DNA of 64,000 nucleotides. Origin: Cephalotus follicularis (Eukaryota; Streptophyta; Magnoliopsida; Oxalidales; Cephalotaceae). Positions 30,756 through 62,039 of this stretch are shown here, one piece after another. The DNA lies in NCBI GenBank assembly GCA_001972305.1, contig BDDD01002673.1, positions 1-64,000 on the forward strand. The letters are read 5' to 3'. A program made the position numbers and the translations under genes. How positions within the stretch are numbered: the stretch's first letter is position 1; every line of letters starts with the position of its first letter. The notes below the pieces were generated by a model. It searched no databases and had not been told where the DNA came from. It was given only the letters and a program-made list of their open reading frames with translations.

Positions 30756-33621
30756 AAATTGATCAACACCAGGTTTGCTGATGTATCTGAAGTGGCTAAT
30801 GCGGCTAAGAACATTGAGCTGGAAAGGGTAGATTTCCAGGCTGCTCGACAGGAGTTTGACAGAAAGAGAAACAGAGGTGATTCTCAAGGGCAAGGTTCTG
30901 GTCAGAATAAGAATAGGAATGGTAAGCGAGGGAAGAGAAGTGATAACCGGGGACAGCAATATCCCGGTAATGACCCGAGGTAGACTCAGGGAGCTGCGGA
31001 TGTTCAGATTGCAAAGTGTGATGTGTGTGGTAGACAGCATCCGGTGGGAGTATGCTATAAGGCTATCGGGGCCTGTTTTATGTGTGGACAAAAAGGGCAT
31101 TTCGTGAAGGATTGTCCTGACCCTCTTGCAAAGGAAAGGAAGAGAAACATTGCAGATCATGGACAACGCAACGTGGGAGGTCGTGTATTTGCTATCACGA
31201 CTCAGCAGGCAGCTAAAGCACCAGGTACAGTTTCGGGCTTTATTTATGTTGGTAACCGTATGGCTTATGTTTTGTATGATACTGGATGGACCCACTCGGT
31301 TGTAGCGAGGTCTTTTGTTCGACATCTTGGGATGTCTTCCTAGTTGCTTGATCCAGCTTTGGTTCTTTCGACCCCTACGGGTTCTTCTGTTGTGATATCT
31401 GAGTGCTTTTATGCTTGTCCTCTTGTTTACGATGATCGGATTCGTGATGCGGATCTTTTTCCTATCGATATGTATGACTTCGATATGATTTTGGGAATGA
31501 ACTGGTTGGATCATCATCGGGCTACGATCGACTGCTATGCTCGGAGGGTTCTGTTTGGGGATGTGAATAGTCCTGAGTTTGTTTTTCAAGGTTCACAGCC
31601 TAGGAGAGAAGTGAAAGTTATATCCGCTTTGAAAGCTCGGAAGTTGGTAGCTAAGGGCGCTGAAGGTTTCTTAGCTATTGTGAAGGATGTCTCAAAGGTT
31701 GAGCCTCGCCTTGAAGACTATCCTGTGGTGTGAGTTTTTTCTGATATGTTTCCGGAGGAGTTACCGGGTTTGCCACCGCAACGGGAAGTGGAGTTTACCA
31801 TCGAACTCATTCCCGCAGCGGCACCTATATCTAAGGCACCTTACAGAATTGCACTGTTGGAATTGTAAGAGTTGAAGGAACAGTTGCAAGAGCTGTTAGA
31901 TCGGGGTTTCATTCGGCCTAGGGTTTCACCGTGGGTGCTCCGGTCCTTTTTGTGAAGAAGAAAGACGGGTCTATGAGGTTATGTATAGACTACAGAGAGT
32001 TGAACCGAATCACTGTTCGGAATAAATACACGCTACCTAGGATTGATGACTTGTTTGATCAACTCCAAGGTGCTCAGTATTTCTCGAAGATCGATTTGAG
32101 ATCAGGATATCATCAGCTTCGGATAAAGGATGAAGATGTGCCTCAAACTGCTTTCCATACTCGGTATGGGCATTATGAGTTTTTGGTGATGCCTTTCGGA
32201 CTCACTAACGCACCGGCAGTTTTCATGGATTTGATGAATAGGGTTTTTCATGAGTACTTGGATCAGTTTGTTATTGTGTTCATAGATGACATTCTTGTAT
32301 ATTCCAAGTCAAAGGAAGAGCATGAAGAACAGTTCCGCATTGTGTTGGGGATTCTGAGGAAGAATCAGTTGTACGCGAAGTTCTCGAAGTGTGAGTTCTG
32401 GTTGGATCAGGTGGCATTTTTGGGTCATGTGGTCACAGCTGAAGGTATTTGTGTGGATCCTGCTAAAGTTGAGGCTATTACGAAATGGCCGAGACCTACC
32501 ACAGTGACGGAGGTTAGGAGCTTCTTGGGTTTGGCTGGATATTATAGGCGGTTTGTGGAAGGCTTTTCCTCTATAGCCTTACCACTAACTCAGCTTATGA
32601 GGAAGGGAGCGAAGTTTGAATGGAATGAAGAGCGAGAAGCAAGCTTTGAGAAGTTGAAGAGTGGTCTTGTGTCAGCACCGATTCTTCGTTTACCATATGG
32701 GTCGGGTGGATACCAGATATACAGCGATGCTTCTAAGAAAGGTTTGGGGAGTGTTCTGATGCAGCACGGTCAAGTGATAGCTTATGCTTTGAGAGAGTTG
32801 AAGCCTTATGAGGTAAACTATCCTACACATGATCTCGAGTTGGCAGCGGTAGTGTTTGCGTTGAAGATTTGAAGGCACTACTTGTATGGAGAAACTTGTG
32901 ACGCTTTTACCGATCATAAGAGTCTCAAGTACATCTTTACGCAGAAAGAGTTGAATATGCGTCAAAGAAGATGGTTAGAACTTCTGAAAGACTATAATCT
33001 GAACATTCAGTACCATCCTGGTAAAGCAAATGTGGTAGCTGATGCTCTAAGTCGGAAGAGTTCTGGGAGTATAGTGGCTTTGCTTACTCAGTCGCAGTTG
33101 ATAGCTGATATGGAACGGATGGATTTGCATTTGTATGTTCGGGGTTCTGAAGGTCGTATTGCTGCGATGAATGTTGAGCCTACTCCTGTATCTCGGATTA
33201 AGACAGCTCAGAGTGACGATGGTGAGCTTTGGGCTTTAGTCTAGAATATTGAAAAAGGTAAGCAATCAGAGTTCCGTATGGATGAGCATGGTGTGATATG
33301 GATGGGTAATCGGTTGTGTGTTCCGTCAGATTCTTCTATCAGAGATGTTGTTTTGTCTGAGGCACACAGTTCTCCATTTTCTATACATCCGGGTTCTATG
33401 AAAATGTATAGGGACTTGAAGAAGAATTTCTGGTGGAATGGGATGAAAAAGGATGTGGCGGAGTACGTTGGGAAATGTTTGATCTGTCAGCAGGTAAAGA
33501 TTGAACACCAGCGTGCTAGTAGTTTGTTACAGCCCTTGGAGGTTCCGTTATGGAAATGGGAAAGTATATCGATGGACTTTGTTACGAGTTTGCCGAGAAC
33601 TTTCAGAAGGCATGATGCTAT
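30756..33621 (+). pseudogene. L8 gag end, protease, RT, RNase H and truncated integrase
   Basis: After the gap: the end of gag with a CCHC knuckle (CFMCGQKGHFVKDC, about 31075-31116). The aspartic protease (about 31180-31560) has its active site changed to DTGW (DTGS in the sister copy). RT follows (31931-32700: [28 protein letters not shown]) with an intact FIDD catalytic box. RNase H (about 32700-33060) has a stop at 32870-32872. HHCC integrase starts follow (about 33355-33500, CLICQQVK), then DFVTSLP. In-frame stops lie at 30981-30983, 31341-31343, 31731-31733, 31866-31868, 32870-32872 and 33241-33243, with a frameshift near 31930. Integrase ends at about 33617 in a fusion to LTR sequence, so two of the three DDE residues are missing. 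Confidence 0.93.
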
Positions 33622-35896: not shown

Positions 35897-38821
35897 AAAT
35901 TGTCACACCCATCCCGACCGAAATGGAAGTGACAATAACGTGGCAAGCCTCTTTTCAAAAACCTCCACGTCATATGTTAAAACCCATTTGAAAACTATTT
36001 AAAACAATATAATCAAATTGAAAATCATACGTTGAACTTTCTAAAAACTTAAAAATAATTTTAACTCTTAAATTTTTACGAAAATCGGGCATGTAGTATC
36101 CGTTTATCAGACTATGCCCCCTATAAAGAAAAATACAGTTCATGAAATGGGCTCAGCCTTTAGCAGACAACAAGAAAAAAAATAGAAAATATACATGGGT
36201 TGGGCTCCGCCTCAACCATATTATCAAGCATGAATCATAAATAAGGCTCAGCGCTTCAAAACAAAACTATAAAAAAATTTGTATAAAAACATAAAAATGC
36301 ATAATTTAAATACTGATGTCGTGGATGATATGCACGTGTTGGAACTCTGGTAGGCATGCCCTCGTGGTCCAACATCGACTGAAATAGACTTAGCAACTTC
36401 TTGCCACTATCTGAAATAGATAAAAGGAGGGGGTTAGTCCAAATGACAAAGTGAGTAGAAACAAAACATCCCATGGTACATCCCTCAAATAATTGGGATG
36501 TGCTGAAATAAATAGAGCAATATCAATAACACAAGGTAAGGTAATTATAATCCACAGAAAGAAAGCTCATATCTCAACAAGTGGATCCACATAAATAAAG
36601 CTCAAAGTACAATAAAATGAAATCTATGGAAAAACAATCTCGATAGAATGAAATCTCAATCACAAGAAATGAGCTCCACAAATGAACAAGACCATAAACG
36701 TACACAAGACCACAAAGGACATGACGATCAAAAAAGGACATCAAGATTCACAAATGTAAACGGAATTCACAAATCTAAATGAGATTCACAATGTAAATGA
36801 GTACCCCAAATGTAAAAGAGATACACAAGTGTAAACGAAATCCAAGAAAGGAAATCTCGATACGCAACAAATGGGCTTCACAATTATAAACATGACTCAC
36901 AAATATGCCCACGTATGAATAAAATGTAAATCCATAGAAGCAATCCCATGTTCAAGGAAAGATCTCCACGAGTACAAATAAGGTGCAAAATGAAATCAAG
37001 GTACACAATATAATCAAGACTCGCAGATGTGATCAACAAATATAATCAAGATATGTGGCCACATAAAACACAATATCTGGAGATGCTGGTACAACTATAA
37101 TGTCATCATCATATAACAACTGCAGTAATAATAACAGGCCAGTAGGCTACAGTATGTGTACACCATACTTCATACACCGGTGCAGAGTGCCTATGGTAAG
37201 CGGCACGCACCACACCCCGAATGATGGGCCTGCGTGTAAACGACACGTACCCCTCCCCATACGATAGGCCTACGTGTAAGTGGATCGTACCCCACCCCAT
37301 ATGATGGGCCTACATGTAAGCGACATCTCACTCTCGTCTGACGAGCAGGCTACGGACACCCCGCTGCAATCTCGTAACACCCCATTATTGACCAATAGGG
37401 CTGCTATAGAATGTAGCTATGGAAACACTTTACAGTCCCATGTAACACCCCATCATAGACCAATGGGCCTACTATAGAGAATTGGGCATCAGACGTACAC
37501 ATCACCCTCGGAGCATAGGGTGTACCCAGCAACAGAGTACAAAGCACAATCTCACAATAAAGCACATAGAGAAAGGAGCACGTAAGCCTAGATACAGAAT
37601 GGAAGGTGACAATATAACCAGAACCAGAACTCATCATGACCAAATAAACGATATCACAATAATGAGAAAATGAGTATCACAATCAAATACAGGACTCAAG
37701 TCAAAAATTAGATAATCAAGATCTCGTATCAAAAGGATACAAAAGGGCACATATCACCATCAAGGAAATTCCAAGATAGAGTAAGATAAGAAAAAGAGAC
37801 TTTCTAGTCGCTAGCACATAGCCACATAACAACAATTTCTATCAATAGATAGATATAACTCAAGATACCAACAACAGGAGTTCAAGTATGAAGATACGAA
37901 AATAGAATGAATAAAGAAATAACAAAGGAAAACAAATATATATATATCCGTCGGAGCCAAATGATGTAACAGCAGAAGGAGAAATGAACATACAAATAAT
38001 GAACATCTCATATCAATATGGGAGTTCAATCGAGAATACTCAATACAGGATTCCGAATAAACAATGATGGAATCATCATGTAAGAAGTCATATGACATGA
38101 TGGAATCAAACAATAAGGGTAATCAACAAATCATAGGAATCGACAAACAGGTTATCAATAAGTCAGGCTATCAACAGACATAGGAATAGATTTCAAATCA
38201 GGCTATCGACAAGTCAGGCTATCGACAAGTCAGGCTATCAACAAGTCATATCACAATAAAGAATAACAATAAGGATACATATCCATCATCAAAGAATTTC
38301 AAGAATGAATAAGATAAGGGAAGGAGATGTTCTATTCATAATATCAGTGCCAATTATTATCACAGACAGGTCCCTCTAAGCTCTGGATTAGTTGTCGGAT
38401 CATCATCATCGTTTGGAAACTCCCCCATCCTTGGCCACCTCCTTCACACTACATAACAAGCACATTTCAGTTACATCCTACACAACGAAAGCAACACACT
38501 TGCGCTACTAGGGCTCTGGCCAGATTTTGGCAAACATACCAGAGCTTTGGCCATGCCATCGATAGCCCCCATATTGGCCGATATATGCATAGTAGTAGCT
38601 GGTGTCGATGAAAACTCAGTAAGTTGACTCAGTGAGTTCCAGTCACGACATCGTGGTTTCGGTCAGACCATCTGTAATAACAGCAAATTCAATTCGTGTA
38701 CATTGTAATATTGACGAATAAAATGTGCACTTACTTGAATCTAATGTCCAATCATTATACGATTGTGGTTGTTAGTTATTTGAGCAAATGGGCCAAAAAT
38801 AACTAAAAGCAGCCATCGACA

Positions 38822-38896
38822 GCCGACTGTCACACGGGGACAGTCGACTGTCTGATGAGTGGTATGACAGTCGACTGACTGTTGAAGACAGTCGAC
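38822..38896 (+). repeat. Palindrome array, cluster a of the L2 solo LTR (CAGTCGACTG)
   Basis: Cores start at 38822, 38843, 38870 and 38891; spacings are 21, 27 and 21 bp. Units read ACAGTCGACTGT or GCCGACTGT variants. Confidence 0.92.
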
Positions 38897-39967
38897 TGGA
38901 TCGGTACAGATTAGGTGTCTGTGCATGCCTGTGTGACTGAATGAAAAGGCATTGCATGAAGGGCAGGTGTCATGCGTGATAGTAGCTGCCAGAGCATGCA
39001 AAATGGAGTGCTTGCATGTTCTCTGCAGACCTGCAACCTGCAAAACAGAATGGAAAGAAGAGAAAGGTGAGAAAGAGATAGAAAGAAGAGAGAAAGAGAA
39101 GTGCATGTGATGAGAGAAGGCTGAGTTATGGTAATCTGGCAAATTCAAAGATCCCTAAGCCTTTATATCAACTGCTAGAACTGTGTGTGAGTGCTAGAAA
39201 ACACTGGAGATAGAGGAGAGTGGCCAAAATTAATGGAGCTTGCATGTTGATGGATTAGAGCTCAAAGAAAGAGAATTGAAGCTTGGATTTGCTTGGTAAG
39301 TTCTCAATCCAAACTCACTGCTAATGTGATGATAATGTAACTAGGAGGATGTTTAATATCTTCTATTAACATGGTTAAGGTTAACAACTTCTAGAATTGA
39401 AGTGGAAAGTGGTAAATGGTTCAAGTAAGGTGGAGATTATAACCTCTAAATTGGATTGTAGTTGTTGATTAGTTGTCATGGTATAAGCTTACTGATTCCC
39501 TTAAGTATATATATATATATATACACACACCTTCTGTCCACACGTTTAAGGTCAATGAATCTAGGATTGAAGTAGATTGACACAAGGTTCATAGAGATGT
39601 GGTAAAAAAGGATAATTATGAGGCTTGATGAATTATTGATGAACCACTGTTAGAACAGCAATTGTAGCTGGATAATCTAGTTAAACCTACTGATTAAGTG
39701 ACTGGACCTTCATAAATGCATGATATCGATTGATTCTGCTGGAATTGAAGGATTGGTTGGAGAAAAAGGCTTGGAAACTCAAAGAGAAAGATCAATTCCA
39801 ATTGATCTTGGGATAAGCAATTGAGGTAGGGGTAATGACATATTTTGGAAGATATGATCATGCATGTCATGTATGTTTATTTTCTTCTTTATTTCATGCA
39901 CTGATTGAATTGTATTAGACATTGGAATATACAAACCCGTTACTGCCTGCATTTATGGGCAGAAGCA

Positions 39968-40077
39968 GTCGACTGTTCTTCATGACAGTCGACTACTCAA
40001 CCCTATCCAGTCGACTGTTAAGACAAAACAGTCGACTGCTCAATTAAAACAGCCGACTGTTCTTGAGAACAGCCAAC
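39968..40077 (+). repeat. Palindrome array, cluster b of the L2 solo LTR (CAGTCGACTG)
   Basis: Six cores start at 39968, 39988, 40010, 40031, 40052 and 40072; spacings are 20, 22, 21, 21 and 20 bp. The last two are GCCGAC and GCCAAC; the first four are perfect GTCGAC. Confidence 0.95.
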
Positions 40078-40895
40078 TGTCCTGGGTTAAAGTTTTGATA
40101 TAGGACCTGTTTGGCCTTTATTTGAATTGCTACTGTTTTGCTATTGTTTCTGTATATGCTACTGTTAATTAGTATATACTAGTGACTGTTACAAACCCTA
40201 TTGATTCCATATTTACACAGATTGAACAAACTAAGTGATATATGCACAATTCATGATAATAACTATCATTTTCAAATGAAAGGTTATTGTTAAAAATAAC
40301 TACTGTTTTCCTCCTATGAGAGGTACCTACTGTTTTGTTTCCAATTGGGAACTACTACTGTATTGATATCGTTCTCCTCTTATGAGATGTACGATCACTG
40401 AATTGTTATATGTTTCTAAAGAAAGCACTTTGATATTGCATATTATATATATGTGTAATATTATTATTGAACAGAAATGATTGAATTGATTGTCTTTGTT
40501 ATTGCCGATTAGTCGAGTGATGGAAGATGTAACTGGCTAACGGAGGTGGTACTATGTGCCAGGAGTTGGCTAGAGTACACACCTAAAACTGTCTGCATTG
40601 CAGATCTTAATTGTTAAACTAACCGCTAATACCGGTAGTAAATGTTACCTGATCTATCATCTTCGGAGTGTAGGGTGATCGATAGGTGGTGCGCAGTTGG
40701 TGCTAGGAGTTAGCGACATGTGACACCCAAACCACAGTATGAATTAATTGTACCCTTGTGCGGTATTCTTGCATTGTATTGTCTATGGCCACTTGGAATG
40801 ATTGCTTATATATTGGCATACTTAAATGATATTTTAAATATAAACTGTCATACATGTTGCATCCATATATTCCTTAACATGCATTATCTTCCTAC

Positions 40896-40920
40896 TTAGC
40901 CAAGTGAGGACAACGGCTAA
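40896..40920 (+). other. Conserved short hairpin near LTR 3' end
   Basis: TTAGCC, a 13-base loop AAGTGAGGACAAC, GGCTAA. The stem is intact although the loop has changed. Confidence 0.65.
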
Positions 40921-41788
40921 CCCCTACAATTTCAGATTAAGCGAAGATTTCAGAGATTGCTGCTAAAGCTTGGAGAGCTTCTACTTTCGACTTAAGGTTG
41001 TTATTTTTTTGATGTTGTACTGTATTTTTAACGAACGGTTCATACCCCGTGTACTATTGTACTTCCTTATGATAGGATAATTTGTTGGATTGTACCTGTA
41101 CGTAGTATGGGCTACGTGTGGATGACTTGTATTTTATATTCCAGCTTTTGAATGCTTCCGCTTATTTATGAATTGTTGAATTGAATGCTGGAATATTATA
41201 TTTATTTCTGATATCACCATATATGCGTGTGCCTATTTGAAAATGGTAAGGCGGGGTGTGACACCATCACTAGTCCCGAAAATCATGGATTGATGTATAT
41301 CTGCTGTGGACTCACCATGACTCACCATGAACCGCTCTGGTCGAGTTTCGGCAACCTTACCGGATCAACGATCACGATGCCAAAAGCCCGCAAACCCCTG
41401 GATATACACGTCTCCACCCGAGACTCCCTGTGACTCACCAAGAATTAGCAATCAAAGCAGGTGGTGAGTCAAGCTCACTGAGTTGACTAGTGGCATAAAA
41501 ATGAATGATTTGTGTTGGAAAACCCATAAACTGCCATCAAGATGGTCGTAGATGATCTTCAAGATAAAAACCCGCTCCAACCACGATGATGTCGGTGATG
41601 GAAGAGACACGACTAAGATGGCAGAAATTGGGAAAGAAAAAAGTGAAAAAGAAAGAAGGGGAGGAAGAGGAAGGTTACCGCCTGTGGTGGAGGCTTTGAC
41701 CGGCGAGCTCTCTCTTCCTAACGCCGGCCCAGCACCCGCTTCTCGCCTCTCTCACTCTGTCTCTCCCTTTTCTTCGCTGGCACCCCGA

Positions 41789-43314: not shown

Positions 43315-43660
43315 GTCGACACCCACTTGATAGGTGTCGATGTTTTTTACTGTGATACGTGGGACTGGTACTGATTACGCGATAAACGTCGATGCTAGAG
43401 GAAAGCGTCGACGCCATGGTTCGTTTAGCATGAATATAGACGTGTTGCACATTGACGCTTAAGGTTCTTACCTTAAAGCATTGATGCCTAAAGTTAAGCG
43501 CTGGTGCTTAGGGTTCCACACCTTCAGCATCAACGCATAATGAGTTGAACATCGACGCCTTAAAACCACTGGGAAGCGTTGACGCTTAGGACTGAGCATC
43601 GACGCTTAGCGTCAATGCTTAGAGGACATAAGCGACTACGCCAAAGCGATAAACGTCAAC
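43315..43660 (+). repeat. Palindrome array, L1 solo LTR cluster b
   Basis: The first cores start at 43315, 43336, 43388 and 43407 (21, 52, 19 bp), the same opening pattern as the other L1 LTR. About ten more decayed units follow, such as AAGCGTTGACGCTTAGG and GCATCGACGCTTAGCG. Confidence 0.87.
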
Positions 43661-46105
43661 GCCTTAAAATTGAGCCTATATGCATTTGACCATATGTTTG
43701 CATTGCATACTAAACTATTATTTGAACTATGGACTGAAATGTGTTTGATTTCTAAAATAGTTTTATCATTTTAGAAATACCTGCATGATTTTGAACAATT
43801 CATTATCTAGTACAAGAATGTATATTTGACAAATGTATATTTTTGAAATGTTTGGGAAAATGATTCCCAAAGCTTGTGAGATTTTTTGTACAAAAATGTA
43901 TTGTTTTCAAGTATTTATAACCTATAAGTTACTTGAAAAACGGAACGGGTATTTTCAAGATTGATACATATTTTCTGAAAATATGTTATGACAAGTATTT
44001 CAATTCACATGAAGTACTTAAAAAGGATTGTCATATATTGGGAAAATATATGTTATAAAAGGACTGTTTTATATATCAATTATGACAAGTATTTCAGCGT
44101 TTGTGTATATGATTTCAGAAATTTATGAATATACAAATTATTCGAAAGATGATTGTTGATTGATTGTGATTGATGTCTTTCCCTACCTCTGGCCGGGTTG
44201 CCTACTCGCCTTGGACGAATAGCATCATTGGACGTGTCGAGGTTCTTCGCCTACATGCCGGTTAGCCTATGGGCTTTCCCCACCTTGGTCAGATAGCAAT
44301 TACATGGGGAAAGCTTCCCCACCCGTGTGGTGGATAGACTGTGAGACTTCCTCGCATCGGACGGTCGACGTCGCCTCGTAGGGTGTGTTTTGATTGGTCC
44401 TTTGGGACGTGGTTGGACTGATTGTCCCATTGGGGCATAACTGATTGTATTGACAGATCCCTTTCAAGGACATGCCTAATGCTTGTGTTAATGTAGCCCT
44501 AATGGGTTGCACCTGTAATGTGAATACATGCTTGTGTTGATGTAGCCCTAATGGGTTGCACCTATACTGTAAACATACATATACATATATATGTATATAC
44601 TGTTATATACCGTATTGCATCACAGTGCATTCATTACATGGAATTTACTATCATTGACCCCGATGTGCATTTATAACTTCTGTACTTAGCCGAGTGAGGA
44701 CAAAGGCTAACCCCCAACAATTTCAGATTGATGCAGTTGGGCGGATGTGGCACGAGTGGGGTGATTGAAGATAATGTATAAGTTGTGTTATCTGGAAGAC
44801 TGATATTCCGACCATTGTAATAATGTGAACTGATGGAATTGTATTTTCGTATTGAGCTTTATTAAACTGTTGTTGTAATCAGTAAAATAATGATACTGTT
44901 ATTGATGGATTTATGTATCGACTGGATTATTGATGGTGTAATGTTATGTACTGAGTGGATAATGTTTTATGATCATGCTCCGTTTGTGGGCAATTAACCA
45001 TGGAATGTTGTATCTTGGTTAAGTCTTGGGTAACATGCAGTATGGGTTGCATGTTACGTTTTATTTCGGCTTATGATTTTATGCTTCCGCAAACGATATA
45101 ATGTTTTGAGAAGTTTTAATTTTTCTGTAATTCGCATAATCTGAATATTTTATGTTAATTGTCGTGACCTATGTGTCGTCCTGAAAAATGGGGTGTGACA
45201 GGTATCATGGGCTTCTTCAATAGAATAGTCCCAATACATTATGCAGGATAATTTGTAGTAGGTGAAAAATGGTATCATGGTTGGGCAAAATGGAATTGGT
45301 TCAATGTTTTTGGCAAAGGTAATTATTGCTTCAACAATAGATGGAGGTAAAATGTCTTCAACTGGTCAGTAAAAATTCCACCAGTCTAGGAACCAGTATG
45401 GGATGATTTGTTTTGCATTAAATGTTTTGTCGAAGCAGAAAAATCAAGAATGTTTATTTTCAATGTTTTGAAATAAGAAGGCATGTTTCCATGTATCTGT
45501 GTAATCAAAATAATTATAAGTAGAGAGAATGAATGGGGATGAAAATTGTCTGGCATTTTGAGGGGCTTGTCTCCAATCGGATATGGTTAGAATTTTTTGA
45601 ATGAATATAGAGGTATGAGTGATTAAATTGGGGTTTTTTGGGTCAACTTTTGGACTGATTTTGATAGAATCAGTATCAACCAAAATGAATTCATAATAAA
45701 TTTGGGATATTTGGGGATGAGCATTGTAAAAATGCCAGTCTTTATAAAAGACTCTTTTTGCAATTTATCAAGGAGTCTGTCAATTTTTTCAAAATTCTAG
45801 TTCAATGAGAAAATAGCATTCAGGATAGGGATTTTTAATGTGTTTATTGGTGGGTCTATTGAATTTGTGAGTAGTAATGGCTTGAGAAGTGGTTGGACTT
45901 TGTCCTTTTACAATGTTTGAATAAATAGTAGTCAATGGTTTAGCGGGAATTGGAATGAGAGATTTCTCGTCTCCAATGTTTGTAATTGTTGGTGGTAACT
46001 GTCTTATGTTACCAAATGCCTGTGAGTAAGACTATTTTGTTCTAAAAGTATTTTATGGCTTGGAAGCCATAATTGTTTCCTGCAACATACATATAGTGTT
46101 ATCAT

Positions 46106-48047: not shown

Positions 48048-48373
48048 GTCGATGTCTATCGAAAGGTGTCGATGTCTTTGTCCCTCAACGTCGATGTCCA
48101 AGTCCTTAGTGTCAGCGCATTCTACTGTTCAAGGACGTCGATGTCCATCTTCTTACGCATCGACGCTCAAGTTCTGGAACCTTAAACGTCAGTGTATTGC
48201 TTACGGCGTCGACGAGTTAAGGTAGGAACCTTAGGTATCGACGTGTTTCACGTCAATATCCAAGCAGATAACCCAAAGGAGTCGATGTTCTTAAAAGGCA
48301 TCGGCGTGATTCACGTCAGTAACCAAGCAGATAACCCAAAGGCGTCGATGTTATAAAAAGGCGTCGACGTGTT
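48048..48373 (-). repeat. Palindrome array, L1 minus-strand solo LTR cluster b
   Basis: Cores start at 48048, 48068, 48090, 48111, 48137, 48159, 48188 and 48208, mostly 20-22 bp apart with 26 and 29 bp steps. Several more follow to 48373, with AAAGGCGTCGAYGT-type units. A unit of about 60 bp holding GATAACCCAAAGGMGTCGATGTT occurs twice (48268-48291, 48329-48352). Confidence 0.88.
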
Positions 48374-49117: not shown

Positions 49118-49272
49118 ACGTTACGCATCGACGTCTTCTTCAAAGACATAGACATATTTTCCCTTTTCTTACGAGGGCGTCGATGTTCACGCCAGCATCG
49201 ACATGCATGTGCATGCAGTTACGTGCGTCTCTCAGTTCCAAAGGCGTCGATGCGTTCCAAAAGGCGTCGATG
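49118..49272 (-). repeat. Palindrome array, L1 minus-strand solo LTR cluster a
   Basis: Units include GCATCGACGTC, GGGCGTCGATGTT, GCATCGACATGC and the pair AAAGGCGTCGATGC at about 49240-49252 and 49259-49273. Confidence 0.82.
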
Positions 49273-49724
49273 CATTTTCCCCAAAACAGCGCCGTTTTAC
49301 ATCAATTTGCCTTTTTAACATTTCTTTAACATTTTTACTCTAAAATTAACATTATTAGAGTTTGGAAAACATCATCAAAGCCTTGGAAATCCATCACTTT
49401 ATTAATTCCACAATAAAAACACATTACATTGTGAAATTACAACAAAGGAAAATCTCGGGCGTTACAGATATACACCTACTAGATGGATGAGTTAGGGTGA
49501 TTATTATGGTAGATTACGGATTAGAATGGAAATCAGAGAGATATTAGTGTGTTTTGGGACATTTAGCCCCAATCTTCTTTCCCTCTCGATTATGGGTTTA
49601 TGGGTGTTGGTTTCAATGTTTTAAAGTTGTAATCGACCATTGGAGCTTACAGCTTCCTTTGGATAAAGTTTTAAACGATTTAAATGTGATTTGATTTGAT
49701 TTTTGGACTGTCAAATGAATCAGC

Positions 49725-49915
49725 ATCGATACTGCTACTTTTAACCATCGATGCTTTGTTAAACTATCGACACTTTTAAATTCATGCTTGAACCATCAGC
49801 AATTTTGGTCAAACTGTCGACGCTTTAGATTAAATCTCTAAACCGTCGACGTTTTAGTGTAAACTGTCAACGCTTTAACCCTTAAAACCATTGACGCTTT
49901 GCTTTAACTGTCGGC
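49725..49915 (+). repeat. Palindrome array in the old L6-like LTR
   Basis: Cores start at 49725, 49747, 49766, 49795, 49816, 49845, 49866, 49890 and 49910; spacings are 22, 19, 29, 21, 29, 21, 24 and 20 bp. Units approximate AAACYGTCGACGCTTT, and many cores are decayed. Confidence 0.9.
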
Positions 49916-51904
49916 GCTTTGTTGCCTTGTTTTATACAAATGTTATGTTTTATCTTCAAATGGCTTCTATATGAGGCTTCCCTAAGTCCGTGTAACCTAT
50001 GTGAATCACCATTTTAAACACAATTGATCTTTTACTAAGCTTCAAATATGAATTTCAATGAGGTTTTCAATAAATCGCTAGGTTCATTCATTTAGGATGT
50101 TTTGATGTGAATATCCTAGTTGGACCTCCTCTCCACCATTTTATTAACTATGATAGGGACCAAGAAATGGTTACGAATACGGTTATGGAAATAGTTATGG
50201 AAATGGTTTTGACAGATGGATCCCACGTTATCCTTTATGGTTAGGTCCCTATCCTTTAAATGCTTATATGGTTATGGTTTAATGGTTTGATATTGTTTGA
50301 GACTTGATGAGATAACCCATTCGTAATCTTCATTCCATCATGAAGGTTATGGGTGTTAGACCACATCGTATAAAAATTGGACCTATGTGTCACGCCCAGA
50401 ACCACGAAGGTGAACCCCCACGATCCGAAGTGTGAGATGCCATCCTTTCAGTCTGTTCATCATATGTCAACCTCCAAAAGTGCTATACATATATACAAAC
50501 TTTAAATCAAAGTCATATAAGTGGAAGAATCATTATATAACATCAGCGGAATAATCAAATCAAATAAAACTAACTCTTAAAATCTCCCGAAATTTTGGCA
50601 TGAAGTATTCGTTTATCGGACTATATCCCCCTGTAAAGAAAACACAATTTATATCTCGGGCTCAGCCCTCAACAACCACACTCCCGTAAGAGGAAAACAA
50701 CAATATATCACAATATATGGACCCATCCATTTCCTTTACATCAACACACATATAAATCAAGCGCTGCCACAAGCCGACAGGTCAATAGCTAAATATAAAA
50801 CATAACTCTAATATATCTTTAGATTTGTCTCTTATACAATAACCATAAATACAACCATTTTCAATATCTGTCCATTTACAATATCACATTTGTACAATGT
50901 AGGTCGGAGGAGAGGCAAATCCTTACCCTGCGATTTAACCTGGCTGGTCACCGCTGCGCGTCACCTGGACCTGAACCTGACCCATTACATTACAATACAA
51001 TGCAATGGGTCAGCAACCCGAAGGTTGTGTAGGATACACATATGCAAGGTACATATAGGAGTGCAGCAGATAAGTATGCCATATGAGATGTATGTACAAT
51101 ACGAGAGATGTGTGCATGACTATCGAAACAGACCAGGCTATGAAAGCTAGCATCTAGAAACTTGCCAGCATCCATATCATTCCAAAATCCTTTCAAGCGC
51201 ATATAGATTTTTCTCAGCCTTCTCTGCCGAGGTAACAGACTAGGCGCTCATAACGTCCTAGGCAGAAGTCTTTATTCCTCTGGAAAACTAGAGTAGCCTC
51301 TGTAAGTAGAACAGAGTAAAGAAGATGGACATTCTCTAACACTGGTCTCTCTAGCCACTGCCACCATCAATATCCATATACCATCACAATCTGTACCATT
51401 ACGATCCATAACGATACGATCCATAACCATATCGTATCCTTTTCGTAACCATTCCATAACCGCACGAACCGTAATCATTTAATCCATAACCGCAACCGTA
51501 CAATCCATATGGAGGAAAGCTATATGATATGTCATGTGATGCAACAGCATAACAGTATGTGAAGCATGTAACAGAGTAGCAGTATGTTGTGCATGTAACC
51601 AATGTAACCATAAGTTATGTGGTGAACAATATATGTATATGTGTATCAATATAACCATCAAATAATATGCCATGTAATGTCATGTATATGAATGACAATT
51701 GCGGACAGCTTCAATATACCAACCGTCCCCAAGCGGGGGTATACTTAGCTAATCCTAATCACATCAAAGGCCATAGGCCTGCAGACAATCCATATCAATC
51801 ACAGGGACAATCAATCCATAGGGTCCATCCCACCCTCGACGCACTTTTGGTGTCGTGGAGGAGTGAGGAATGAGATAACACTGACCACGTCATTTATTTC
51901 TTGA

Positions 51905-52010: not shown

Positions 52011-52578
52011 TCGTTCCTGACATTCACGACGGAAATGAAAGTCAGGAACGGGTTATCTCTATAGTCTCATACGACACAATCAACAATGTATCCCTTAGTT
52101 ATAACCCAAAATCATGTATGCTTTTAAATAATAGGGACCGTTTTGTAAAGGATCTCTTCGATCCACGTCCGTCAATCAAGTAAAGATCATTTCATAGTCA
52201 TAAATCATTTTTCATATTCAATGGCAATTTTCATTTCCATAATCCATTTTGTAATCAATTTTCATATAACATTTGATTGGTCCCTATCGAAGTTATAATG
52301 TATGGAAAGGAAGTCCAAATGGAACGGTCTGCGTCCAGATGTCCCAATAGAACTATCCTAACCATTTTTGAAAACCATTTATATAAAATTCCCTTTTTTT
52401 ATGAAACTTCCTTTAAAGATTCATTTTGCTGGTTGATCCGTAGTTTAAAAATGTCACAAGAGGATTTTCATAGGCTACAAGGCCTTAGGGAGGCTTCCTA
52501 TGAAATCCATTTGTATAGAAATCCATTTCGGATGAAACCATATAAAACGGTTGAGTTTAACTAAAACAGGGTACTAAG

Positions 52579-52728
52579 TGTCGATGCTTAGCCCTAGGCG
52601 TCGACAGTTTTAAAAAGCATAAGTATAAAGCATCAACGGTTTGTTTGAAAGTATAAGGCATCGACTGTTTGGTTTAGCACATAAAAGCGTCGACAGTTAA
52701 GAAGAAAGCGTCGACGGTTTTGGAAGAA
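52579..52728 (-). repeat. Palindrome array in the minus-strand L6 solo LTR
   Basis: About seven units, for example AGTGTCGATGCTT, GGCGTCGACAGTTTT, AAGCGTCGACAGTTAAG and AAGCGTCGACGGTTTT. Confidence 0.85.
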
Positions 52729-54920: not shown

Positions 54921-57664
54921 TGTAATACCCTGCTTGTTCGTATATGTGTTTTGCAGACTTATATATATATATGTGTGTGTGTTTGTTTTCGGGCTTTTTA
55001 AATTATTTTGTTTTAAAGTCCGGTTGCCCTGTGTTTTGGGCCTGTGTGATTTGGGTTGATTGATACCAGCTTGAATTTTTGGATATGTTAATGCAATGTT
55101 GGGTTGGGCCTATGTTATATATATATTTTTTATTCTATCAAAACTTTATTTTATTTTATAACTTTTAAAATTATTAAAACATTTCTCTTATTATAAAATT
55201 TATTTCATTTATTTTCTTTATTTTATTTTATTTTATTTATTTCTTTTTCCTTTTCTTTCTTCTTCCTTTCTTTCCTTTCTTCTCCTTTCTTCTCCCGAAA
55301 CTCTTTCCTCCCCTCATCAACCCCACGCACTTTCAATCTCACCTTTCCATATTAATCCGATTTTTGTCCCCCTTTATTCCTTATCTATCCCTTAATTCAC
55401 TCTATTCCTTCTTGTTTTAAGAATGCCAAGGCTTTGTGATAAGCCATTCGTTTCTCTTGCTCTCATTGCCAAGTTCTGCATTTTTTAGAAGGGTGTTTTC
55501 AGTTCTTCGATCAGTTGCTGCATCAAGTCAGGTTTGTTGTGTAATTTCAATACTTGTTGTTCAATAAAATTATGATGTTCTTTTGCTGGTTTAAGGCTGT
55601 TCATGTATTCTTTTGGTTTCTCTCTTTGGTCTCCTGTGTACAGCCAAGTGACATTATTGTGTGGTGATCTCTCTACTATTTTCTGTGTTCTTAATACCAT
55701 TACAGGTTAGTTATTTTGTTTCCTACTGTGATGGTTTAGCTACACTATTATAAATCCAATTTATGTCCTCTTGGCTATGAAGTTTTGAATTTCTACATAT
55801 ATATGTCCTGTCATTGTATTCCTAAGTCTGTCAGTATGTTTTAAACACCATGGACATGTTATAATCTGGTTTTAATGTCTGCAAGTGGTAGTGGACAGAA
55901 AATTGGAGTTATATGTATGCATATGTTTGAAAAGTTCTTTCTTTCTCTTGAAGTTAACCACTGCCAATATACTATTCCATGTCAATCCTATGTTTTTGTG
56001 TCATCTAAACATCATATAATGTCTCATGTATATGTTCATATGTCTTTGGTATGATGTCATTCATGTTTGGGCAGTTTTTGTATTGAAAATGTTGTGTTTC
56101 TGCTGTTCTGTCGACCAGAACAGTCAGCTGGTTTGGTTGAGCAGTTGGCTGCCATATGAAAGCAGTTGACTGTTTCTGTTGAGTAGTCAGCTGGCCCTGT
56201 TGGACAGTTGGCTGCCAAGCTTCCCCAGTCGACTGGAGCTCTGTGATAGTCGGCTGTTTTGCCTAGAAAATTTCTGTTTTCAACTATTTTGATCCGGTTG
56301 TTCTCTGAATCAATCCGGGTCTTTTCTAAACACTGTAATGAGTCTATTTAATGTCTCTAATGTTTCTTAGACCCTTATATGAATGGTTTTGGGTGTCTTT
56401 TAGATTGTTGTGTTCAAAAGGGGGGTTGAATTAACAATCTATCCGTAAGTGCTTTTGTGAACGCATAAGGTAAGAATTTCTATCGTTCTTTGGCTATCTG
56501 GTTTTATCGAACTGAAATCAGTTTTGTTCTATGCTTTGTTCCTTCGTTTTATGAATTTGATTATATCTTATAGTTCTGACATAATTCAGAAATAAAGTTG
56601 TTTTTTGACATTTTATGAATTTAAATGTTCCTGACTTTATTATTATGCTGTGATACGATATGTTGTGAAATGATAATCTCTTTATATCGAAAAATAAATG
56701 AGTTGCTATTTTGACTATGAAATGTAAGTTATGATATCGTCGTGGACGATTTCCAAATATGTTTTTTGAAAGAATATTTTATTTTTTTTATTGATTTTGA
56801 TAAATCGATGTTTTCAAAATGATTGAATACTGAGTATTGTACCCACCTATGGGGCGTACCATAGGCATGTCGTAGGCCTGGCACGGGGACATGACACTTC
56901 CGTAGCGGTGTGATTAGTCTACGGCGTCTCTGAATGTTATGAATAAATCCCATGAGGTGGATTTATGGATCCGCTATGTATGATAGAGGCGTATGAATCG
57001 ATTCTAGTTTATGGATATGTGATATGAAATGATATGTGAGAATTGACTTGTGTAGTGCCGTACACTTCAATTCTAATGGGCATTAGCGCGTCCCTTGTCA
57101 ATATATGTTATGAAATGTGATATTTATGTGACTCAGTATTACTATATCAATTATGAAGTGATATTTTTGAAATGTTTTGAAAGATATGAAAATTGGTATT
57201 TTATGGAAACTCGAATATGATTAAACTGTTTTAATTGCTTAAGATTTCTGTTATGAATTTTATTGAAATCTTACTACATTTAAACTTATCATTTACTGCT
57301 TTTTCTTTCCTTATCCGTACTGAGGTTTGCTCAGTCGCGTTTTGTTTTCCATGCGGCAGGTTATCGGGAGCAACGGGGGAATGTGAGAATGAGATATGAC
57401 CACCTTTATGTCCTGGATTCCTAGGAGTGTGATCCTTATGTGTCTTTGGTTTTAGTGGTCATGAACAATATGTTATTTGGTTTATGTTTTCGTATTTGAC
57501 TTATGACATATGTTAAGTTTTATGTTATGAATAATTTTTCAGTAATGCTATGACCGCCACGTTTTGGCTAATAAAGAAATGTTATGTTCAGTTAAAGTTA
57601 TGCCATGTTATGATAGGTTCTGTATTATGACCTGTGGAGACACCCGTCGTCCGGGGGTTTTACA
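54921..57664 (+). mobile_element. 5' LTR of the second L8 element
   Basis: Starts TGTAATACCCTG and ends CGTCCGGGGGTTTTACA (2744 bp), followed by a PBS. The preceding five bases TATGG should be the target duplication; the 3' end of the element is not in the window. It carries the most regular palindrome array of the window. Confidence 0.93.
56110..56254 (+). repeat. Palindrome array in L8 LTR, exact 21-bp period
   Basis: Cores start at 56123, 56144, 56165, 56186, 56207, 56228 and 56249, each exactly 21 bp apart. A further GTCGAC is at 56110. Cores are GTCAGC, GTTGGC, GTTGAC, GTCAGC, GTTGGC, GTCGAC and GTCGGC, flanked by CA/TA on the left and TG on the right. The period survives although most cores are mutated. 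Confidence 0.96.
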
Positions 57665-57833: not shown

Positions 57834-59037
57834 ATGGTACGTACAAGGAACGCAACTTAGAGGGCTGCACCCGTTGAGGCTCAGGAAGTCAGAAATGAGC
57901 CATCTATGGAAGAGTTAGTACGTCAGGCAGTTTCTCAAGAGGTACGAAGGGTGATGAGTCAGCAGAATCAGGAACAAAGCCGTAGGGAGCCAGTTGCTGA
58001 GGAGGATGCTCCGGCTGATGTTCAGTTGGGAAGAGAAGCTGGGGACAGGACTTACACACCTACTTATATCTGGCTTAAGTGGTTCCAGAAGCAGAGACCA
58101 CAGTCTTTCAGCTCAGCCGTGACTCCTGTGGAGGCTGAGCACTGGATTGCTCATATGGACAAGATCTTCGATGTGCTGGGTTGTAGTGATGAACAGAAGG
58201 TTAAGTTAGTTGCTTACAAGCTTGAGGGTGACGCTCATAAATGGTGGAAGGCTATGGGTTTGGCTAAGGGTTGTAACTATGCAGAGACTTTGACCTGGTC
58301 GGAGTTTTGCGAAGTCTTCTATCAGCAGTATTTTCCCGCTGCTGATAAGGAGGCGTATACCAGGGAGTTCATCAATACAATAAAGAAGGATGGAGAGTCG
58401 GTCACGGAGTTTCTGACCCGTTTCACTAGGCTTGCTGGTTTTGCTGGGTCCGCGGCAGGGACAGCACTAGAGCAGGCTGAGAAGTTCAAGTGGAAGTTAC
58501 ATTATCAGCTTAGGGGTAAGCTGATTAACACCAGGTTTGCTGATGTTTCTAAAGTGGCAAATGCAGCAAAGAATATAGAACTGGAGAGGCAAGATTTCCA
58601 AGTAGCTCGCTAGGAACGTGACAAGAAGAGAAACAGGGGAGACTCTCAGGGGGAAGGTTCTGGACAAAATAGTAAGAATAGAAATGGCAAGCAAGGAAGG
58701 AGGAATGATAACCGGGGATAGCAATAGCCCGGTAATGATCAGAGGCAGACACAGGGAGCTGCGGATGTCCATATTGCCAAGTGTGATGTTTGCGGTAGAC
58801 AACATCCAGTGGGAGTGTGCTATAACGCTATCGGGGCCTGATTTGTATGTGGTCAGAAGGGACATTTCGTTAAGGATTGTCCTGATCCTCGTGTGAAGGA
58901 AAGAATGGGGAATAATGCAGATTCCGGACAGCGCAATGTGGGAGACGTGTTTTCGCTATCACGACGCAGCAGGCTGCTAATGCACCAGGTACTGTTTCGG
59001 GCTTTATTTCTGTTGGTAACCGTAGGGCTTATGTTTT
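57834..59037 (+). pseudogene. Gag of the second L8 element (retrotransposon gag domain, CCHC knuckle)
   Basis: The likely start is ATG 57834 (MVRTRNAT, then a stop at 57858-57860). The frame is open again from 57906 to 58613. The retrotransposon gag domain spans about 58075-58500 (AEHWIAHMDKIFDVLGC, GDAHKWWKA, WSEFCEVFYQQYFP), which packages element RNA in the cytoplasmic particle. A basic Gly/Arg-rich linker follows, then a CCHC knuckle at about 58850-58880, whose first Cys codon is preceded by a stop. Further stops and small frameshifts occur at 58611-58613, 58718-58728 and 58840-58850. Close in sequence to the first L8 element, whose gag start is lost in a gap. Confidence 0.9.
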
Positions 59038-60651
59038 GTATGATACTGGATCGACCCACTCGGTTGTAGCAAGGTCTTTTGTTCTGCATCTTGGGATGTC
59101 TTCACAATTGCTTGATCCAGCTTTGGTTCTTTCAACCCCTACGAGTTCTTCTGTTGTGATATCTGAGTTTTTCTATGCTTGTCCTCTTGTTTTTAATGAT
59201 CAGATTCGTGATGTGGATCTTCTTCCTATCGATATGTATGACTTCGATATGATTCTAGGTATGAACTGGTTGGATCATCATCGGGCTACGATTGACTGCT
59301 ACGCTCGGAGGGTTCTGTTTGGGGATGTGAATAGACCTAATTTTATTTATCAAGGTTCACAGTCGAAAAAAGAAGTGAAGGTTATATCTTCTTTGAAGGC
59401 TCAGAAATTAGTGGCTAAGGGCGCTGAAGGCTTCTTAGCTGTTGTGAAGGATGTCTCATAGGTTGAGCCTCGCCTTGAAGACTATCCTGTGGTACGAGAG
59501 TTTGCAGATGTGTTTCCAGAGGAGTTACCGGGTTTGCCACCGCAAAGCGAAGTGGAGTTTACCATCGAACTCATTCCTGGAGCGGCAACTTTATCTAAGG
59601 CACCTTACAGGATGGCACCATTTGAACTGCAAGAGTTGAAGGAACAGTTGCAAGAGCTGTTAGAACGGGGTTTCATTCGGCCTAGTGTTTCGCAGTGGGG
59701 AGCTTCGGTTCTTTTTGTGAAGAAGAAAGACGGGTCTATGAGGATTTGCATAGACTACAGAGAGTTGAATCGGATTGATATTCTGAATAAATACCCTTTG
59801 CCTAGGATTGATGATTTGTTTGATCAACTCCAAGGTGCTCGGTATTTTTCTAAGATTGATTTAAGATCAGGATATCATCAGCTTCGTATAAAGGAGGAAG
59901 ATGTGCCTAAAACTGCTTTCCGTACTCGGTATGGCATTATGAGTTTTTGGTAATGCCTTTCGGACTCACTAATGCACCGACAGTTTTCATGGATCTGATG
60001 AATAGGGTGTTTCATGAGTACTTGGATCAGTTTGTGATTGTATTCATAGTTTACATCCTCGTGTATTCCAAGTCAAAGGAAGAACATAAAGAACATATTC
60101 GAATTATGTTGGGTATTCTGAGGAAGAATCAGTTATACGCAAAGTTTTCAAAGTGTGAGTTCTGGTTGGAACAGGTGGCATTTTTGGGTCATGTGGTTAC
60201 AGCTAAAGGTATCCGTGTGGATCCTGCTAAAGTTGAGGCTATTACTAAATGGCCGAGACCTACCATAGTGATGGAGGTAGGAAGTTTCTTGGGTTTGGCT
60301 AGATACTATAGGCGGTTTGTGGAAGGCTTTTCCTCTATAGCCTTACCACTAACTCAGCTTATGAGAAAGGGAGCTAAGTTTGAATAGAATGAAGAGTGAG
60401 AAACAAGCTTCGAGAAACTGAAGAATGGTCTTGTTTCAGCACCGATTCTTCGTTTACCATCTAGGTCGGGTGGATACCATATATACAGTGATGCTTCTAA
60501 GAAGGGTTTGGGGTGTGTTTTGATGCAGCACGGTCATGTGATAGCTTATGCTTCAAGACAGTTGAAGCCTTATGAAGTAAACTATCCTACACATGATCTC
60601 GAGTTGGCGGTAGTAGTGTTTGCGTTGAAGATCTGGAGGCACTACTTGTAC
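59036..60651 (+). pseudogene. Protease, RT and partial RNase H of the second L8 element
   Basis: The protease active site DTGS is intact (about 59040-59053), with DMILGMNWL downstream. A stop lies at 59459-59461. RT starts at about 59490 ([28 protein letters not shown]). A single-base deletion near 59935 (TATGGCATT versus TATGGGCATT in the sister copy) shifts frame. The catalytic box reads FIVY (about 60045-60056) where the sister has FIDD, so both metal-binding Asp are lost. A stop is at 60385-60387. RNase H (about 60470-60651: [21 protein letters not shown]) ends at HYLY, where an L4 LTR is inserted. Confidence 0.94.
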
Positions 60652-60892
60652 TGTAATGACCCGAATTTCCCCTAAAGATATTAATTATGGAAAGATGATT
60701 GCTGTTGTATAATTGGCAAATAGTTCAAGGGACCCATAGTATGACCCTACGCTCGGGGGGTTCGGGGGTTCCGCTCCCCAGTGAGCAGACAGGGGGTCCC
60801 GCTGCCCGGTCAGCAGGCAGGGGTTCGGGAGGCAGCGCCCCCGGAAGAAAATTTAATTTGTCTAAGTGATGAGAAGGAAAACTGTCTTAAGC

Positions 60893-61145
60893 GCCGACAG
60901 TTGCACTTAAAGCGTCGACGCTTGAGTAGTAACGGTCGACGCTTAGACCCCTCCTAATGGCGCTTTAAACCAGTGCAAGGGCAAATTGGACATATGCATC
61001 TAACCGACGACGCTTGGACGAAAGTGGCGACGCTTTGAAGTTAAGTTTCGGCGCTTCAAGTTTAACGGGCGACGCTTTGAAGATCGAGTATTGAAGTTGA
61101 CCTGGAGGAGACTTAAAGCGGCGATGCTTTAAGGAAAGAGTCGAC
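60893..61145 (+). repeat. Palindrome array in the truncated L4 LTR
   Basis: Cores start at 60893, 60914, 60935, 61006, 61026, 61047, 61068, 61120 and 61140; spacings are 21, 21, 71, 20, 21, 21, 52 and 20 bp. Units are AAGCGYCGACGCTT-like. Confidence 0.92.
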
Positions 61146-62039
61146 GCTTTGCCCTGTGTCAGGTGCAGAATTCTAGCTTTTTACCCCGTTTCGGAGGAAT
61201 TAAATGGATCGAGGGACAAGTGTCAAGCAAGGGATGGAAGACTTATTATATTTTGTTAAAAAGGGCAGGTGGCAATAGCTGAATGGATTTAATTTAGTCA
61301 CATGGAGGCAAGCTCACATGGGTGAGGTCATGGATGACACCATGCAAGCTTGGCCTCCAAGTTTCCCTTCTCTTTATATATGGGTGCATTCTCAGCTGAT
61401 GAAGGGCTGCTTTTCTGCTGAGATTAGAGAGGAGGATGCTTGGGAGAGATGAAGAGAAGGAGATCAAGTGAGGTAAGGAGATTCTATACCCATTTTATCA
61501 AAGTTATTCCTCGGTTTTACTTCCAAATTATGCAGCAGATAGTTTAATTCATATATTGCTGATTTCTTGATGAAATTTCAAATGGTTTAATGTTTTGAAA
61601 ACCTTAAGATGTCTACTTTAACTGTTATTTTTTATGCATCTCGAAATGCTGTCGAATTCTTGATGGAAAGCCATGTTTTCTTCTACTGCTCAAGTCCTAT
61701 TTTCAAAAGGAAACTGCAACTTTAAAAATTCATTGCAGCTTCGTTTCTCAATGGAATTTTATGATTTTTATCTCTATAGAATTATTGAGATGTCTACTTT
61801 GACTTTTATGTTTTAAGTTTTCTATGACAGTGATTATTTCTATATGAAATATCTATGTTAGAAAAGTTATGCAAAACTGTTTTCTAAAGGGTTTTGAGTT
61901 AATTATTCAAAGTGATGAGAAATGTTTTATGATTGTGAAATGAAATGAAATGAAGGTTTATACATGAGAAACTAGTTTTAGAAAGGCTTTACAATGATGT
62001 TTTATGAATGCTTTGGGCTGATCACTCAAGGTATTAAGG

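Follow-up and report, generated by a model that had tools for sequence, protein, structure and literature searches.

Palindromes of 10 bp, set in rows at near-constant spacing, occur in the LTRs of several retrotransposon families in the genome of Cephalotus follicularis. The regularity of these arrays is real and large-scale, and by its sequence features it appears to be selected and cis-regulatory. The arrays are probably, though by no means certainly, enhancer modules of LTR retrotransposons, in which each row would serve as a series of sites for a single sequence-specific DNA-binding protein or for a few related proteins. The candidate site is the 10-bp core, which reads CAG(T/C)CGACTG along the element in most families. 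A protein would bind the array at cores placed 21 ± 1 bp or, less often, 28 ± 1 bp apart, so that neighbouring bound proteins could touch or cooperate. The linkers would be free to drift while the core spacing holds, and binding would drive transcription from the LTR.

Arrays in the window and spacing of the cores in the genome

The window, that is, the whole stretch of 64,000 nucleotides that was analysed, contains two copies of the Ty3/gypsy element L8 and a solo LTR of the BC family, with the following features:

28093–28102, forward strand: probable LTR start (5' end), first L8 copy (TGTAATACCC), where homology to the other copy starts
29275–29438, forward strand: palindrome array of eight cores in the LTR of the first L8 copy
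29527–29533, forward strand: TATA-like TATTTAA, 89 nt past the array, first L8 copy
31922–32869, forward strand: piece of L8 with reverse transcriptase and RNase H of Ty3/gypsy type (PF00078, PF17919, PF17917)
38673–41263, forward strand: solo LTR of the BC family with TG...CA ends, carrying arrays B and C
38820–38898, forward strand: array B, four cores with steps of 21, 27 and 21 bp, in the BC LTR
39966–40079, forward strand: array C, six cores with steps of 20, 22, 21, 21 and 20 bp, in the same BC LTR as array B
54921–54930, forward strand: probable LTR start (5' end), second L8 copy (TGTAATACCC)
56121–56256, forward strand: seven 10-bp cores forming the palindrome array in the LTR of L8 (Ty3/gypsy), second copy
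56345–56351, forward strand: TATA-like TATTTAA, 89 nt past the array, second L8 copy
57861–58610, forward strand: gag piece of the second L8 copy (PF03732; PF19259, Ty3_capsid, under its cut-off)
59462–59950, forward strand: reverse transcriptase piece (PF00078), second L8 copy

The cores of the second L8 copy start at 56121, 56142, 56163, 56184, 56205, 56226, and 56247, every step being 21 bp, while the steps in the first copy are 20, 21, 22, 28, 21, 21, and 21 bp. The coordinates and spacings of both arrays had been given correctly in the original prediction, whose series beginning at 56123 marks the starts of the inner hexamers of the 10-bp cores. Compared with the consensus, the seven cores at 56 kb include one exact copy, one with one mismatch, four with two and one with three mismatches; at 29 kb, one of the eight cores is exact and the other seven carry one mismatch each. 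Chance does not account for these arrays: the window contains 38 matches to the core at up to two mismatches vs. 16.5 ± 4.2 in shuffles, none of 100 of which reached 38.

Arrays B and C were not mentioned in the original prediction. Array B starts 147 bp into the BC LTR, and array C follows it at a distance of more than 1 kb within the same LTR. This LTR of ~2.6 kb was taken as a solo LTR because it is bounded by TG...CA, is flanked by a CCATC target duplication (38668–38672 and 41264–41268), and has an empty counterpart, a related repeat at about 25911–25915 in the window that lacks the BC insertion.

In the genome assembly of ~1.58 Gb (1.577 Gb in 9,746 contigs), the exact core, CAGTCGACTG, is present in 197,377 copies, compared with 939 copies of the control, the reversed CAGTCGACTG. 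Pairs of exact cores were counted over the whole genome in three spacing classes, and numbered 38,210 at 19–23 bp (control, 136), 7,802 at 27–29 bp (control, 13), and 844 at 30–39 bp (control, 7). This equals about 7,600, 2,600, and 84 pairs, respectively, per base pair of spacing. Random placement at the observed density would yield ~123 pairs at 19–23 bp and 74 pairs at 27–29 bp. Among the matches listed, most pairs of the 30–39 bp class represent a single linker type at 30–32 bp, mainly 31 bp.

Smaller samples gave the same two steps. An array was present in 8 of 20 systematically placed 10-kb stretches, one of which was short by 6,212 bases. The cores with at most one mismatch in this sample formed 36 consecutive spacings of up to 40 bp: 31 at 20–22 bp, four at 27–29 bp, and one at 39 bp. 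The first 100 exact cores listed for contig C1 yielded 43 consecutive distances of up to 40 bp, 37 of them at 19–22 bp and six at 27–28 bp. When cores with up to two mismatches were considered in all 40 arrays, 10 of which had been chosen for a 27–29 bp gap, 201 of 203 spacings below 40 bp fell at 19–23 or 26–29 bp, the other two being 7 and 31 bp. Loci L002 and L004, which overlap L003, were left out throughout. The spacing rule of the genome is 21 ± 1 and 28 ± 1 bp; the exact 21-bp phasing of the original prediction describes the 56-kb copy and does not extend to the genome. In other collections, 13 array stretches were found in prokaryote contigs and none in the collection of viral contigs.

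Two further features of the long gaps were considered and rejected. A second motif, CGTG/CACG, is centred in 24 of 40 distinct 28-bp-gap linkers (0.6 in shuffles), yet it is family-specific, since 8 of the 10 fetched examples belong to BC while the examples from L8 and D lack it. Degenerate in-register cores with at least six matches were seen at 11 of 39 places (9% in shuffles), but the mean number of matches, 4.49 vs. 4.26, was hardly raised.

Element families, possible module exchange and a second palindrome

Judged by flanks and protein domains, the array sits in one Ty1/copia Sirevirus family, designated A, and in three Ty3/gypsy-type families, L8, BC, and D, of which BC is less firmly assigned. 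None of the latter three belongs to the Ty1/copia Sireviruses. The presence of the array outside L8, in copia and other gypsy elements, had been missed in the original prediction. The four groups were assigned by hand from a flank comparison of 30 arrays and from domain searches; under single linkage alone, A, BC, and D fell into a single component. The L025 array at 2097 stood alone and was put in BC by its place, and the L015 array was left outside the four groups.

Family A (loci L001, L021, L027, and L029) has 12–18 cores per LTR array and a shorter array ahead of a third ORF. The Sirevirus PPT, AGGGGGAG followed by AT/TG at the 3' LTR, was found in L027, the one of the four loci that shows this junction (AGGGGGAGATTG at 3576, with further PPTs at 3238, 3269, and 3308). 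The Sirevirus PBS, TATCAGAGC after a CA/ATTGG junction, is exact in L029 (CAATTGGTATCAGAGC) and one base off in L021 (CAGTTGGTATCAGAGC); L001 has a PBS on the opposite strand only, probably that of another element, and L027 only an outside match. Copia-type gag/pol domains (Retrotran_gag_2, gag_pre-integrs, rve, and SH3_retrovirus) were identified in L021, the locus scanned. A TATA-like box lies 43–45 nt past the array in all four copia LTR arrays.

Further copia arrays lie directly 5' of the env-like third ORF (PF20167). The PF20167 match is above the cut-off in L027 and, at 39.4 bits, under the cut-off of 45 in L003; in L021, the array directly precedes a region homologous to this ORF. This location, and the fact that all 120 listed relatives of the third ORF, of 247 found, come from the single species Cephalotus follicularis, would suit an anti-silencing function, in which a protein encoded by the element or by the host binds the array and strips silencing marks, by analogy with VANC proteins and the tandem motifs of the VANDAL elements. 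Structure prediction for the third ORF gave no guidance in this respect (mean pLDDT, 41), and the motif is common to elements with differing coding content. We regard an anti-silencing role as distinctly unlikely.

L8 was identified as Ty3/gypsy by the Retrotrans_gag, RVT_1, and RT_RNaseH pieces downstream of its array in the window. Its TATA-like box was not found at 89 nt in L024, L016, and L025. According to the original prediction, L8 copies without the array would speak against it. This was borne out in part: LTR pieces in L009 and L005 correspond to no more than the downstream portion of the L8 LTR and have no such array nearby, while the other L8 copies compared had been found by their arrays and hence are no test of its absence. 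Group D is of Ty3/gypsy type by a Retrotrans_gag and Ty3_capsid piece after the LTR in L005, and its LTR starts with TGTAAC(A/G)CCC in both L005 and L006. The D LTR of L006 is nested inside a BC-like LTR, so that the protease and RNase H pieces of this locus are not attributable to D, whose assignment now rests on the L005 gag. For BC, an Integrase_H2C2 piece on the same strand precedes the LTR in L026, and rve was under its cut-off; its placement in the Ty3/gypsy type is less firm. The distance from the LTR start to the array is 144–147 bp in BC (window) and at the two D loci. The 420 nt following array B gave no TATA-like box in any of five copies.

The sharing of one array by two superfamilies could result from module exchange or from convergence, and the linkers favour some exchange. 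Linker words with at least 9 of 11 identical bases are shared by copia family A and gypsy family BC in 18 pairs (0.42 in column-permuted sets) and by A and L8 in six pairs (0.44). Cross-family alignments of arrays exceeded linker-shuffled controls at z > 3 in 7 of 24 pairs for A and L8 and in 16 of 28 pairs for A and B. Module exchange would be the simplest account of the sharing across superfamilies; a second conserved linker motif is the alternative, and could likewise explain the shared words. These data are also what can be said in favour of the arrays being recombination signals, i.e., exchange points that move U3 modules between families. The copia arrays ahead of the third ORF, however, show no excess of alignment (1 of 50 pairs at z > 3), and exchange accounts for the sharing but not for the conservation of single core bases and of the spacing. 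We regard a recombination signal as highly improbable as the function of the arrays.

A second type of palindrome, resembling AAAGCGTCGACGCTTT, shares the GTCGAC centre with CAGTCGACTG. Elsewhere in the window and sample, 285 such palindromes were detected at up to five mismatches, compared with 59 in one shuffled set; their consecutive spacings are mostly 19–22 bp (83) and 28–33 bp (25), and the exact paired form numbers 278 vs. 0 for the control. A BC-like LTR in L006 matches the window at 39667–39865 (74% identity) and 40399–40662 (75%). The segment enclosed by these flanks holds array C in BC but an array of the second palindrome in L006 (8461–8615), as would also be expected of exchange. 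In L005, the L8-like piece without the first palindrome is preceded by a second-palindrome array (5594–5737). It appears that one motif of the array can be replaced by another at the same LTR position, L006 being the one clear case, and such a switch seems to fit a changed binding specificity better than a neutral relic. One may speculate that GTCGAC palindromes at 21 bp, with a second step near 28–30 bp, form a common retrotransposon code, read by one host protein family and joined by unrelated copia and gypsy elements through exchange or renewed evolution of the array. Such a code would have at least two dialects, CAGTCGACTG and AAAGCGTCGACGCTTT, switchable at one LTR place. We offer this as a possible but doubtful extension of the enhancer reading.

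Conservation of the cores, strand polarity and a candidate binding protein

The cores are better conserved than their surroundings. As upper estimates (ordered pairs share sequences, the arrays were found via their cores, and alignment favours cores), the pooled within-group identities in pairwise alignments were 0.83 for cores, 0.61 for linkers, and 0.66 for flanks; core identity exceeded that of the linker in 90 of 90 ordered same-family pairs and that of the flank in 83 of 90 (25 of 30 arrays); and the core CpG was retained at 804 of 876 aligned sites, compared with 876 of 2,236 other CpGs in the same pieces, being the better kept in 179 of 184 ordered pairs (29 of 40 arrays). Since methylated CpG is expected to decay fastest, this CpG retention is the strongest sign of constraint. 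The conservation and polarity counts leave out the second L027 LTR and arrays L005_3286, L006_528, L011_2122, and L015_7766. Some of L030–L039 are also left out of the CpG and polarity counts, and the arrays ahead of the third ORF and L025_2097 out of the CpG count.

The most frequent mismatches in 206 non-redundant units were T to C at position 4 (57) and A to G at position 7 (36), followed by C to T at position 1 (19) and G to A at position 10 (18). Next to the core, T is avoided at –1 and A at +1. The 11-bp linkers are 34.5% identical within an array, 27.6% between arrays, and 26.6% after shuffling. Consequently, the regularity does not derive from a recent tandem duplication, an origin that the original prediction had named as grounds for its own rejection.

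The linkers also bear on neutral inheritance, by which an ancestral tandem array was amplified together with its elements and the regularity is a relic. Many copies are indeed related by descent, block duplications occur inside copia arrays (L027, 393–596 and 516–723, 76% identical), and some linker words recur between families. Nevertheless, linkers that are nearly unrelated within arrays keep their length constant to a base or so, and the core CpG is far better kept than other CpGs of the same pieces. A purely neutral origin of the regularity is very unlikely.

The cores are oriented. Among sense-oriented cores in which the other eight bases are exact (33 of 40 arrays), positions 4 and 7 read TA in 104, CA in 51, TG in five, and CG in three cases, so that 155 of 163 cores read CAG(T/C)CGACTG in the sense of the element. 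In terms of the CRT/DRE core, (A/G)(T/C)CGAC, the sequence G(T/C)CGAC is located on the sense strand in these 155 cores, on the other strand in five, and on neither in three. Position 7 is A at a frequency of 0.99 in both the copia family and BC, 0.93 in group D, and 0.77 in L8, and position 4 is T or C in groups A, BC, and D. The polarity is reversed in L8 (TG, 5; CA, 1). Counted by family, the polarity amounts to four groups vs. one, for which common descent could be responsible. Neither a perfectly symmetric dimer site nor a hairpin gives grounds for such polarity, while a directional G(T/C)CGAC element does; the symmetric dimer site, considered as a candidate, is weakened by it. In an unbiased test, the double variant CAGCCGGCTG was only weakly avoided (4 of 151 vs. 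7.9 expected; Fisher p = 0.10), and its genome count is 7,846 vs. 133 for the control.

The arrays might instead act as RNA, with paired palindromes of the transcript forming long hairpins that feed small RNAs, a model put forward for the palindromes of maize Sireviruses, or with a role in RNA packaging or dimerisation. Five array pieces gave folding z-scores of –4.87 to –9.05, and none of 200 shuffles was as good in each case. Palindrome clusters of maize Sireviruses are described as small-RNA hotspots in the available parts of PMC5311732 and PMC10760457. Good folding, however, comes with any palindrome array, and hairpins need no spacing of 20–22 or 27–29 bp. The common variant CAGCCGACTG produces C–A mismatches in the sense RNA. 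Across 148 neighbour pairs, no compensation was found between position 4 of a core and position 7 of the core that follows; if anything, there was a deficit of Watson–Crick pairs (outer, 88 observed vs. 95.7 ± 3.9; inner, 85 vs. 93.8 ± 4.1). Selection for hairpins was rejected on account of the absent compensatory change, though the arrays fold. Their folding is perhaps a cost that comes inevitably with such arrays, an idea put forward for Copia elements in the accessible text of PMC10760457. We consider a function at the RNA level unlikely.

The original prediction had offered same-face protein binding or a 21-nt RNA register as explanations. Given the lack of compensatory covariation and the strand polarity, protein binding appears to fit better than the register. 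Strict same-face phasing as the sole rule did not hold up, because the regular second step of 28 bp corresponds to 2.67 helical turns.

As to the protein that would bind the putative enhancer modules, the centre of the palindrome, G(T/C)CGAC, matches the core of the CRT/DRE (CBF/DREB) element. A host AP2/ERF factor of the CBF/DREB kind is for this reason a tentative candidate. AP2 proteins usually bind as monomers and would need neither a palindrome nor a fixed spacing, which counts against this candidate. The CAG and CTG on either side of the core centre are no less fixed than the centre itself and lie outside the CRT/DRE element. GTCGAC corresponds to the PLACE element CRTDREHVCBF2, the HvCBF2 low-temperature element, in a table citing Xue (2003) in the part of PMC4553201 that was available.

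Several observations count against the enhancer reading. The link to a TATA-like box is not general across the array families, the polarity is reversed in L8, array C is situated more than 1 kb past array B, and L8-related LTRs occur without the array. If the enhancer reading is right, one protein family could control many retrotransposons in both LTR superfamilies through ~197,000 exact sites. The arrays would then make it possible to test directly whether unrelated elements pass LTR enhancers to one another, and would provide a natural data set on site spacing and decay in cooperative binding. They could also help to explain the palindromes of Sireviruses, whose role is left open in the consulted text of PMC2829016.

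Comparison with known systems

The original prediction held that no plant LTR array of this kind had been described. This was mistaken: RM boxes, high-copy palindromes upstream of the LTR TATA box, are known from Sireviruses (Bousios et al., 2010; PMC2829016, available in part). Like the arrays described here, these palindromes are numerous and mostly contain CpG; they occupy the upstream half of the Sirevirus LTR, ahead of its TATA box, and recur 5' of the env-like gene. Family A shows the same placement, upstream of a TATA-like box and of an env-like ORF. The RM motif of Vitis, CGGTCGACCG, is two bases apart from CAGTCGACTG. RM boxes mostly have a CGG–CCG signature, while the signature here is CAG–CTG, so that family A departs from them in this trait; the Tnd-1 motif in the same paper likewise lacks CGG–CCG. 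In the parts of that paper at hand, RM boxes were reported to be Sirevirus-specific after a comparison of Ty1/copia elements, and the words 'spaced' and 'periodic' do not occur. Unlike RM boxes as described there, the present array also occurs in Ty3/gypsy-type families and displays the 21/28-bp spacing rule and strand polarity.

The LTR palindromes of maize Sireviruses are likewise clustered in the cis-region of the LTR and have strong predicted RNA structure, according to the accessible portions of PMC5311732 and PMC10760457. Their core, CACCGGAC...GTCCGGTG, is unlike the one found here, and small-RNA data exist for maize, while the present array is described from its sequence.

VANDALs, in contrast to the carriers of the array, are DNA transposons. 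In the VANC/VANDAL system of Arabidopsis, the motif, YAGTATTAY, lacks palindromic symmetry and the protein that binds it is known, unlike in the arrays examined here; the words 'spacing' and 'periodic' are absent from the available text (PMC5735166). Among the stress elements known from LTR promoters, those of Rider are sites for host transcription factors, with DRE and ABRE motifs, and resemble the arrays in their DRE-like element; the heat-responsive ONSEN elements and the activation of Tto1 by MYB are named in the same source (PMC6762207, in part). Each of these cases concerns one element family, and the portion of PMC6762207 available mentions no fixed phase. A literature search with the CAGTCGACTG string gave no titles on plant elements among the matches listed.

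Within the searches made, the new features are the variant of the motif, its occurrence in Ty3/gypsy-type families of the same genome, the spacing in two steps, the retention of the core CpG, the strand polarity, and the motif switch. By their motifs and placement, the arrays are of the same kind as the RM boxes of Sireviruses, but cross the borders between superfamilies.

Arrays of a second palindrome

A second palindrome, AAAGCGTCGACGCTTT-like and also centred on GTCGAC, was found in arrays in the window and in the genome sample. The step between its units was mostly 19-22 and 28-33 bp, and 13 flank groups were distinguished among the 30 arrays from window and sample.

Second-palindrome arrays, window positions
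331-435
1207-1405
6863-7087
11139-11353
22044-22204
43331-43665
48063-48373
49122-49298
49742-49920
52575-52720
60888-61150

In the sampled stretch L006, a BC-like LTR (8153-9131) carries this palindrome (8461-8615), not the 10-bp CAGTCGACTG cores, at the place of array C. This stretch also has a group-D LTR (384 to about 3340) that sits nested inside a BC-like LTR; the end of the group-D LTR, as placed by a short match, may lie at about 3340. Sampled stretch L008 contains two second-palindrome arrays of almost identical layout (1538-1933 and 9374-9770), 7.8 kb apart; these are probably both LTRs of a single element.

L8-like LTR pieces and the third ORF of the copia family

Two LTR pieces resemble the L8 LTR in its downstream part, at 86% (L009 9472-9711) and 75% (L005 4960-5185), and no CAGTCGACTG array was present within 1.3 kb of either.

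The third, env-like ORF (PF20167) of the copia family lies directly 3' of an internal array at two sampled loci:

L027 1683-2930, third ORF
L003 2024-2758, third ORF

All 120 listed relatives of this ORF, of 247, were Cephalotus proteins, several of them groups of many members.

Linker sequences and 28-bp gaps

Genome-wide, a single family has a 30-32-bp step (for example, G000:C9:394736-394776), and the linker TTCTGGG...GCATGCA recurs in it.

Inside the 28-bp gap of the BC family, a centred CGTG or CACG was frequent (L026, L030, L031, L033, L037, L038, and L039); it was absent from the gaps of L025, L032, and L034. Among the matches listed, 24 of 40 distinct 28-bp gap sequences contained this centred motif, an ABRE- or NAC-like core.
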